DNA from: an uncultured Rhodospirillaceae bacterium
GTDB taxonomy: Bacteria > Pseudomonadota > Alphaproteobacteria > Rhodospirillales > Casp-alpha2
Reading direction: 5' to 3'
Assembly: GCA_913030825.1 (NCBI GenBank)
Contig: CAJWCU010000019.1
Span: forward strand, 1 to 64,000
Length of the DNA stretch: 64,000 nucleotides
The position numbers and the translations under genes were made by a program. How positions within the stretch are numbered: position 1 is the first letter of the stretch; every line of letters begins with the position of its first letter. The notes under the pieces were generated by a model that was not told the origin of the DNA, made no database searches, and saw nothing but the letters and a program-made list of their open reading frames with translations. Shown here in pieces: positions 18,831-21,456 of the stretch.

Positions 18831-20105
18831 ATGGCCGAGATTCCGTCACCGGATACCCTCGAAGAGAAGCTGTTGCTGGACCGCCTGAACCGGATGGAGC
18901 AGGGGGGCACCGGCTATTACGCCGTGCACATGCACCTATCGGATCTTAAGGCCACGAACCGCAAGCCCCATTTCATCCGCCTGGCCGCCCGCAATTTCGA
19001 CAACATCATCAACCAGCACGACGCAACGCTGTTCCAAATGAAGAACGCGGATCAGATCATTCTGTGCCGCAACGTGCCGGTGAACGAAACCGAGGCCCCG
19101 GTCGAAAAGATCCGCTCGCTGTTTTCCGAGGACCCGTTGACCCATGTCGACGAGACGGGTCTGGGAGAGGACCGCTTGTCCACCTGGTACGACCTGTCGG
19201 AACAGGACGATTTCCGCGCCTTCGTACGGGTCGTCGGCTCGCTGGTGCTGGAGGCCGAGGAAACGGCCAAGCGCGAAGCCCAGGAAGCGGCGGCGCAGCA
19301 AAAGGCCGTCGGCCAGCCGTTGACGGCGCAGCACTTGACGGCGCTCAGCCAGGTTCTGCCGCGTATCCCGATCGACGACCTGATCCGCGAGCAGCTCTGC
19401 CTGCACATCGGCGCCAACGGACCCGAGGGCGTGATTTTCCGCGAATATTTCATCTCGATCGGCGACCTCAAGCAGCGGGTGGCCCCGGGGGTGAATCTGT
19501 TCTCGTCGATCTGGCTGTTCCAGTATCTGACCGAGGCGCTGGACCGGGTGATCCTTGCCAACATGGCCGGCCGAAACTTCGAGCAGATCAACGAGCCGAT
19601 CTCGCTCAACCTCAATATCGGCACCGTGCTGTCCCGTGATTTCCAGAATTTCCATCGCGCCGTGGGCGGCCATGCCGACAACGTCATCATCGAGATGCAG
19701 GTGATCGACATCTTCTCCGACGTCGACGCCTTCACCATCGCCCGCAACATGTTGCAACAGAACGGATATCGTGTGCTGGTCGACGGCATCTCGCCTGTCT
19801 CGATGCAGTTCTTCGACCCGGCCATCCTCGAGGCCGATTTCATCAAGATCGGTTGGGGCAAGGAATTCGAGAACGAAGAAGAAGACGACAGCAAGGTCGA
19901 GGACCTGCGCCGCATCATCCGCGATGCCGGTGCGGAATCGATCATCATGTCGCGCGTCGATTCGGAATTCGCCATTCAATGGGGCCTGAATCTGGGGATC
20001 ACCCGGTTTCAGGGCTTCCTCATGGACCGGCTGATCGACACCGTGCGCTCGCAGGGGCGGCGCGCACGGATCAAGAAGGACCGCGCCCGCAGCGCCGCGC
20101 AATAG
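18831..20105 (+). CDS. Degenerate EAL-like domain protein, copy 1 of a tandem pair
   Basis: A 424-residue soluble protein (ATG 18831, GGGAG ribosome-binding site). The C-terminal half (about residues 180-410) follows the layout of an EAL phosphodiesterase fold: EYFISIGDLK in the EAL-strand position, SLNLNIGTVLSRDFQ, NVIIEMQVIDIF, GYRVLVDGISP where a catalytic DDFG would be, and FQGFLMDRLI for the terminal strand. The metal-binding E/D/K residues are absent, so it should not hydrolyse c-di-GMP. The N-terminal part (HMHLSDLKATNR, LFQMKNADQIILCRN) looks like a small alpha/beta domain, perhaps a decayed GGDEF-like fold. An acidic insert (EFENEEEDDSK) lies near the end. Function unknown; likely a binding or scaffold protein. 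Confidence 0.72.
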   Translation: MAEIPSPDTLEEKLLLDRLNRMEQGGTGYYAVHMHLSDLKATNRKPHFIRLAARNFDNIINQHDATLFQMKNADQIILCRNVPVNETEAPVEKIRSLFSEDPLTHVDETGLGEDRLSTWYDLSEQDDFRAFVRVVGSLVLEAEETAKREAQEAAAQQKAVGQPLTAQHLTALSQVLPRIPIDDLIREQLCLHIGANGPEGVIFREYFISIGDLKQRVAPGVNLFSSIWLFQYLTEALDRVILANMAGRNFEQINEPISLNLNIGTVLSRDFQNFHRAVGGHADNVIIEMQVIDIFSDVDAFTIARNMLQQNGYRVLVDGISPVSMQFFDPAILEADFIKIGWGKEFENEEEDDSKVEDLRRIIRDAGAESIIMSRVDSEFAIQWGLNLGITRFQGFLMDRLIDTVRSQGRRARIKKDRARSAAQ

Positions 20106-20145
20106 CGCGCAGCGGGACGAGAGAAAGCAGGCATAGGCAAGACAG

Positions 20146-21456
20146 ATGGCGACCGCGCCCGACGCACAGAAATCGATCCCCAGCCAGGAAAACCTGTTGC
20201 TGGATTACGTGCGCCGCCTGGAAAAACACCGGGACGGCCGCATGGTCGTGCACGTCCACTTGTCCCAGTTGCGCCCCTTCAACCGGCGGGAACAGCACAT
20301 CAGGGCGGCGACCTCCAGCTTCGATCCGCTGGTCAGTGCCATGTCCGGCCAATTGTTCGCCTTGCGCAACGCCGACCTGATCTTCGTGTTCAAGGCCGAA
20401 GCCCGGCCGCAGGTCGAAACCGTGGTACAGAAGGTCCGTTTTCTGTTCTCGGACGACCCCCTGATCGCCGAGGCCGATACCCACGAAAAGCCTTTCGCCA
20501 GTTGGTACGACGCCGAAGACAATTACGACGAGGTCCTGCATCTGGCCCGCGACCTGGCGGATGAGGAAGAGGAGCGCCTGACCAAGGTACGTTCGCGCAT
20601 GGATGCGCGTTCGGCCCTTCGCGCCAAGCAGCAGCAAGGCGAACCCCTGACCCCGGATGTCCTGGCCCGGGTCGAAGACGCGTTGGGCCGTGCCGATCTT
20701 TCCAACTATGTGCGCCGCCAGTTCGTCTGCCGGGTCGATTCCAAGCTGGTTCCGGAACAGGAATTTTCCGAACTGTTCATCTCGATCTCGGACCTGCGGG
20801 AAACCCTGATGCCGGGGGTCAACCTGACCTCCAACCGCTGGTTGTTCCATCACCTGACCGAGACCTTGGACAAACGCATGCTGTCCATGTTGTCGAAGAC
20901 GGACGCCATCACCATCACCGGCGAGATCTCCATCAACGCCAACGTCAAGACGCTGCTTTCGGACGATTTCCAGGTCTTCGACGACAACGTCTCGGCGTCG
21001 CGTCGCGGCGCCATGGTCATCGAGTTGCAGAAGGAAGACATCTTCTCCGACCTGCCGGCCTTTTTGATCGCCCGCGAATTCGTTCAGGAACGGGGCTACC
21101 GGGTGTTGCTCGACGGCCTGACCATGCAGACCATGTTCCTGGTCGACCGGGAAAAATTGGGCTGCGACCATGCCAAGTTGATCTGGACCCCGGCCCTCGC
21201 CGATGCCGGTGAGGAGGTCAAGGAACGGCTCCGCGAATTGGCCGCGCAAAGCGGCGGCGGCAAGATGATTCTCTGCCGTTGCGATACGCGCGAGTCCGTG
21301 GAATTCGGCCGCTCCGTCGGGATCGACCGGTTCCAGGGCCGTTTCGTCGAGGGCCTGATCGCCGAAGATGGACGCCGCCGCGATCTGTTGAAGTTGAAGC
21401 ACCGTATTCAGCGCGGCACCGCCGCCGACGATGAAGACGAGGAAATGGTCGAATAG
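20146..21456 (+). CDS. Degenerate EAL-like domain protein, copy 2 of a tandem pair
   Basis: A 436-residue paralogue of the preceding gene, 40 bases downstream and so surely in the same operon. Aligned blocks include HVHLSQLRPFNRRE with HMHLSDLKATNRK, LFALRNADLIFVF with LFQMKNADQIILC, FISISDLRETLMPGVNL with FISIGDLKQRVAPGVNL, EDIFSDLPAFLIAREF with IDIFSDVDAFTIARNM, and RFQGRFVEGLI with RFQGFLMDRLI. It too lacks EAL catalytic residues (GYRVLLDGLT replaces the DDFG region). The C-terminus is acidic (DDEDEEMVE) where copy 1 is basic (RARIKKDRARSAAQ), which suggests the two could form a complementary complex. No transmembrane segment or signal peptide is seen. Confidence 0.72.
   Translation: MATAPDAQKSIPSQENLLLDYVRRLEKHRDGRMVVHVHLSQLRPFNRREQHIRAATSSFDPLVSAMSGQLFALRNADLIFVFKAEARPQVETVVQKVRFLFSDDPLIAEADTHEKPFASWYDAEDNYDEVLHLARDLADEEEERLTKVRSRMDARSALRAKQQQGEPLTPDVLARVEDALGRADLSNYVRRQFVCRVDSKLVPEQEFSELFISISDLRETLMPGVNLTSNRWLFHHLTETLDKRMLSMLSKTDAITITGEISINANVKTLLSDDFQVFDDNVSASRRGAMVIELQKEDIFSDLPAFLIAREFVQERGYRVLLDGLTMQTMFLVDREKLGCDHAKLIWTPALADAGEEVKERLRELAAQSGGGKMILCRCDTRESVEFGRSVGIDRFQGRFVEGLIAEDGRRRDLLKLKHRIQRGTAADDEDEEMVE

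Follow-up and report, generated by a model that had tools for sequence, protein, structure and literature searches.

A tandem pair of EAL-like genes, here called A and B, raised the question of what two adjacent paralogues with altered active sites do and whether they work together. The genes lie in a 64,000-nucleotide stretch of DNA from an uncultured Rhodospirillaceae bacterium, the whole of which was analysed and is referred to as the window. A first-pass annotation made from the sequence had described two open reading frames on the same strand separated by 40 bases from stop to start, and both were found as described (Table 1). The colinear blocks that it quoted as evidence of paralogy fell in register in a near full-length BLASTP alignment of A and B (35% identity, 54% positives, E = 1e-74). 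B was more conserved than A. Comparison with three genomes of the same genus gave a dN/dS of about 0.1 for A and B alike (dN about 0.06, dS about 0.6), indicating purifying selection on both. Neither protein contained a hydrophobic segment (maximum 19-residue hydropathy 1.34 for A and 1.06 for B). The opposite charges of the two C-terminal tails, also pointed out in the first-pass annotation, were present in the window but were not a conserved property. In an alignment of 146 relatives the charge of B tails was bimodal, from -8 to +6, while A tails were mostly mildly basic, and complementary tails as an A-B interface were rejected because the charges vary among relatives.

Table 1. Coordinates of genes A and B, their domains and the active-site residues mapped in A (positions in the window; residue counts are conservation among 146 relatives).
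Feature	Coordinates	Strand	Evidence
Gene A: degenerate GGDEF-EAL tandem protein, 424 aa	18831..20105	+	ORF; AF2; Foldseek; dN/dS
A pseudo-GGDEF domain, residues 11-121	18861..19193	+	AF2 secondary structure, Foldseek coverage, column counts
A long inter-domain linker helix, residues 125-159	19203..19307	+	DSSP on AF2 model
A pseudo-EAL domain, residues 166-401	19326..20033	+	Pfam EAL, AF2, Foldseek
A Asn260: EAL catalytic Asn, first-metal ligand	19608..19610	+	146/146; PMC5301497
A Glu288: EAL first-metal acidic ligand	19692..19694	+	146/146; PMC5301497
A Asp318: first Asp of DDFG (D323 in B)	19782..19784	+	145/146; PMC5301497
A Lys339: EAL catalytic Lys	19845..19847	+	146/146
A Gln394 (of QG): EAL conserved Gln	20010..20012	+	146/146
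A-B intergenic gap, 40 bases	20106..20145	+	
Gene B: paralogue of A, same fold, 436 aa	20146..21456	+	ORF; AF2; Foldseek; BLASTP against A
B pseudo-GGDEF domain, residues 14-122	20185..20511	+	AF2, Foldseek
B pseudo-EAL domain, residues 170-404; N264, E293, D323, K344, Q397 kept	20653..21357	+	includes AF2, Foldseek

To assign a fold, both proteins were modelled with AF2 using 62-row alignments. The pLDDT was 93.5 for A and 90.5 for B, and the pTM values of 0.68 (A) and 0.63 (B) suggest that the relative placement of the domains is less certain. In Foldseek searches of the PDB, the highest-ranking matches of A and of B were GGDEF-EAL tandems, aligned over about 430 columns (best E 4.1e-13 for A and 1.9e-12 for B), with PA0861, MorA, LapD and PA0575 as the top tandems and the EAL half of FimX among the top fold matches. 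TM-scores were about 0.6 against EAL-only targets and about 0.4 over the whole chain, the latter expected if the domain orientation differs. These full-length matches indicate degenerate domains in both halves, GGDEF at the N-terminus and EAL at the C-terminus, and an unrelated fold was rejected. The proposal of an EAL-like C-terminal half joined to a decayed GGDEF-like N-terminal half therefore holds for the models of both A and B. At the sequence level, Pfam EAL (PF00563) matched residues 233-398 of A with an E-value of 8.7e-7 and a score of 29 bits, short of the 31.3 cut-off, and B was unmatched. Several relatives exceeded the cut-off, and at E-values up to 1 EAL matches were obtained for 32/33 A members, 33/35 B members and 20/21 members of a third paralogue group, C. 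Pfam GGDEF (PF00990) did not match A, which lacks a GG[DE]EF motif; inspection of the alignment showed N72-x-D74-x-x at the motif position.

We then asked what is left of the EAL active site. Residues of A were mapped by profile alignments to genuine EAL domains, and conservation was scored in an alignment of 146 relatives comprising A, B, single copies and group C. The first-pass annotation took the metal-binding and catalytic residues to be lost. It was right that LVDGISP or LLDGLT occupies the DDFG position, but nearly every relative retains five securely mapped residues of the active site. Eleven columns were at least 99% conserved, and five of them are the EAL active-site positions N260, E288, D318, K339 and Q394; the chance that at least five of the eight mapped positions would be so conserved is P = 2e-7. 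Trp342, an additional residue next to Lys339, was 97% conserved. According to the PA3825 structure (PMC5301497), Glu39, Asn98, Asp130 and Asp160 coordinate the first metal, while Asp161 and Asp183 coordinate the second, joined by Glu217 in the calcium form. The equivalent of Asp161, the second Asp of DDFG, is Gly or Ala in the A/B family. The Asp183 equivalent (column 341, the Asp of KID) is mostly hydrophobic or small, Asp not being a common residue there, and the Glu217 equivalent (the Glu of AEG) is Ala, Cys or Ser. Glu205, conserved in 145/146 relatives and placed by the AF2 model in a plausible strand, may be the Glu of the EAL motif, an assignment kept tentative because the profile alignment is ambiguous across that segment. 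By the same mapping, most members have Ser, Ala or Gly where the phosphate-binding Arg of EALxR would be. Across the A/B family the sequences thus consistently point to a first metal site that is kept, its EAL Glu presumptively, and a second that is erased. The set expected of an active phosphodiesterase, namely DDFG, the EALxR Arg, the AEG Glu and both metal sites, is incomplete in A and B. This pattern predicts proteins that do not hydrolyse c-di-GMP but have a conserved pocket.

To determine how regularly the two genes occur together, we tallied by hand 61 genomes from the window's order and closer relatives. A was present in 54, B was also present in 52 of these, and in 50 the genes were adjacent on the same strand with A upstream. 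The A-bearing genomes without an adjacent B were all cases in which the gene lay at a contig end, and A was never alone on an intact contig. Seven of the 61 genomes had neither gene, three of them showing a weak family match. In nearly all relatives A and B overlapped or were closely spaced, and strand and order were fixed across families. The pairing put forward in the first-pass annotation, which homologues occurring singly would have undermined, survives this survey, and the 50 adjacent pairs led us to reject the pair as a local oddity. In one genome (L076 in G054, with 18 GGDEF matches) the pair is split into four ORFs by apparent frameshifts, apparently through sequencing error or decay of the pair.

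A tree of the family gave separate A, B and C clades. Members of the tandem pairs in families f62, f65, f84 and f100 split into the A and B clades, and single-copy genes of other orders fell with B; deep placements are provisional given the quick tree method and the long branches. In other orders the family is mostly represented by a lone B-type copy, which indicates that B does not need A. In two genomes of family f26, within the order (G283 and G412; L128 and L129), the A-like and B-like genes are at two separate loci, so both have been retained without linkage. The family was present in 107 of 387 sampled alphaproteobacterial genomes (about 28%), a count that covers the whole family as the B-profile search used at class level also detects C proteins. 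A single-sequence scan of named genomes returned only three near copies. Contig C10 of genome G000 carries three tandem C-type pseudo-EAL paralogues (L078:8242-12045, minus strand). On that strand an OmpR-type response regulator gene and a histidine kinase gene lie immediately upstream of the three paralogues, and after them comes a conserved protein of about 270 aa with no NCBIfam match.

Genomes with the family also encode c-di-GMP signalling domains. GGDEF matches were found in 107/107 family-positive genomes as compared to 175/280 family-negative genomes when the lists for the 387 genomes of the class were compared by hand, an association (uncorrected log10 p about -18) for which genome size and phylogeny are confounders. 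The association extends to small genomes: GGDEF was present in each of the family-positive genomes of 1.3-2.4 Mb given a separate check. In the window's own genome, canonical EAL was matched five times and GGDEF about ten times. At two of its loci (L170 and L171) the EAL domain of the encoded protein is intact (EALSRF and EALARF), and the L170 protein also has a degenerate GGDEF-like N-terminal half.

Recurring neighbours suggest an envelope or polysaccharide output. A nucleotide-sugar SDR lies divergently upstream of A with gmhA and hldE further on, and in the window a convergent cobalamin gene follows B. A divergent upstream phosphoesterase found in many relatives is absent from the window. 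At about ten order-level loci B is followed on the same strand by a DrrA/NodI-type ABC ATPase and permease; such DrrAB/NodIJ-type ABC-2 exporters directly follow B or a single gene at L055, L060, L061, L062, L064-L068, L073 and L156. A search of the window's own genome gave no match to the ABC permease, and this exporter was rejected as an obligate output partner. Single B-type genes of other orders often adjoin polysaccharide export genes or the redox regulators RegA/RegB (identified as NCBIfam ActR_PrrA and ActS_PrrB), the latter being convergent with the B-type gene at L133, L146, L148, L153, L155, L158 and L162. In other genera a single C-type gene is preceded, 53-159 bases upstream on the same strand, by a gene whose product, about 815-855 aa long, resembles an FAD-dependent sarcosine/dimethylglycine dehydrogenase (L083, L085, L086, L089, L090, L092 and L094-L097). 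No flagellar genes were identified among the neighbours examined.

The explanation that we favour, at a probability of roughly 0.5, is that A and B make up a cytosolic, catalytically dead GGDEF-EAL pair that is linked to c-di-GMP and works like a soluble LapD or FimX. As part of this explanation, the two genes come from an old duplication and form an obligate pair in the window's alphaproteobacterial order. With one half of the active site near-invariant and key residues lost, a receptor or scaffold is more likely than an enzyme, and judged from the sequences a heteromeric receptor appears to be the best-supported reading. The retained pocket would still bind one metal ion together with a ligand, for which c-di-GMP and its product pGpG are the likeliest candidates. 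A would contact B through the GGDEF or EAL domains, and ligand binding would alter the A-B complex and thereby switch an output protein, a mechanism in which the job of a soluble LapD or FimX would be shared between two partners. The weakest step is the output, for which the recurring neighbours make envelope polysaccharide or export functions probable. Against this reading, the EALxR Arg, which as R450 lies at the centre of the c-di-GMP site of LapD (PMC3032553), is replaced in most members. In addition, LapD has lost the metal-binding Glu (KVL; PMC3032553) and the DDFGTG motif, which metal binding requires, is missing from FimX (PMC5301497), so the retained-metal pattern of A and B is not the usual receptor pattern.

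The loss of the second metal site in essentially all members, and of the EALxR Arg in most, would also fit a pure protein scaffold like YdiV or CsrD, in which the domains provide a surface for docking, nucleotides do not bind, and conservation reflects structure or contact with a protein partner. Degenerate GGDEF/EAL proteins of E. coli do work via protein contacts (PMC5635695). We consider this doubtful for A and B, as the residues with the highest conservation sit in the pocket and not in a surface patch, and the pocket residues are identical in A, B, the single copies and the distant C group. That A and B instead form two independent homodimers, their adjacency being a relic of tandem duplication and co-transcription with no contact between them, we judge improbable. 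Single B-type genes with similar invariant residues do occur in other orders and the EAL domains of active enzymes and of LapD homodimerize (PMC3032553), but A is found without B only at contig ends, f26 keeps both genes after their separation, and strand and order do not vary across families. The invariance of the first metal site and of the catalytic Lys and Gln, together with the conserved Trp342, would be explained if the proteins were not dead and had residual one-metal activity on another phosphodiester or phosphate ester. This is very improbable, as known EAL enzymes use two and perhaps three metals (PMC5301497) and every ligand of the second metal has been lost. A more speculative and rather unlikely proposal is that the pair is a heterodimeric pseudo-phosphodiesterase representing a class of one-metal nucleotide sensors across Alphaproteobacteria, the ancestral sensor being B-type and A having joined it as a regulatory partner; evolution would have removed the second metal site and the substrate Arg and frozen the first site in both partners.

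The receptor reading for A and B can be set against known systems. Literature searches found no description of the A/B family, which is unnamed and is a variant within the known class of degenerate GGDEF-EAL proteins. Pfam scores at or below threshold mean that annotation misses the family, and copies on Azospirillum plasmids are unannotated or labelled hypothetical protein. A and B share their two-domain fold with MorA, PA0861 and the EAL proteins of their own genome, but active GGDEF-EAL phosphodiesterases keep DDFG, EALxR and the AEG Glu and A and B do not. CsrD and YdiV (RflP) are likewise degenerate EAL proteins and act by protein contacts, CsrD being membrane bound and YdiV consisting of an EAL domain only; no link to RNase E or FlhD was seen for A and B. 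TipF is the product of a single gene, functions in flagellar assembly and has membrane segments, which by hydropathy A and B do not. It is an alphaproteobacterial EAL-domain receptor for c-di-GMP, from Caulobacter (PMC10519070). FimX resembles A and B in being a cytosolic, inactive GGDEF-EAL protein, and has a PilZ protein as its partner; no PilZ gene was noticed in passing near A and B among their conserved neighbours.

LapD of Pseudomonas fluorescens and Vibrio cholerae, like A and B, has a doubly degenerate GGDEF-EAL module and was matched over the full length by Foldseek; the V. cholerae protein was also the best PDB sequence by profile (E = 0.022). Its ASRVET and FQGFIVDK segments correspond to (L)xRVDSE and FQGxxxDK in the A/B family, and the AEG Glu is lost in both (the V. 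cholerae protein has ASR). A and B are soluble and paired, whereas LapD acts alone as a transmembrane HAMP receptor whose transmembrane, periplasmic and HAMP domains are absent from A and B, of 424 and 436 aa. LapD has KVL in place of EAL and retains the Arg that binds c-di-GMP, while A and B keep the first metal site and have lost that Arg. The signature residues of A and B make their function directly testable by point mutants. Dead GGDEF-EAL proteins are already known as receptors, but the examples compared here are single-gene systems, whereas A and B are an obligate pair within one order and keep exactly one of the two metal sites.
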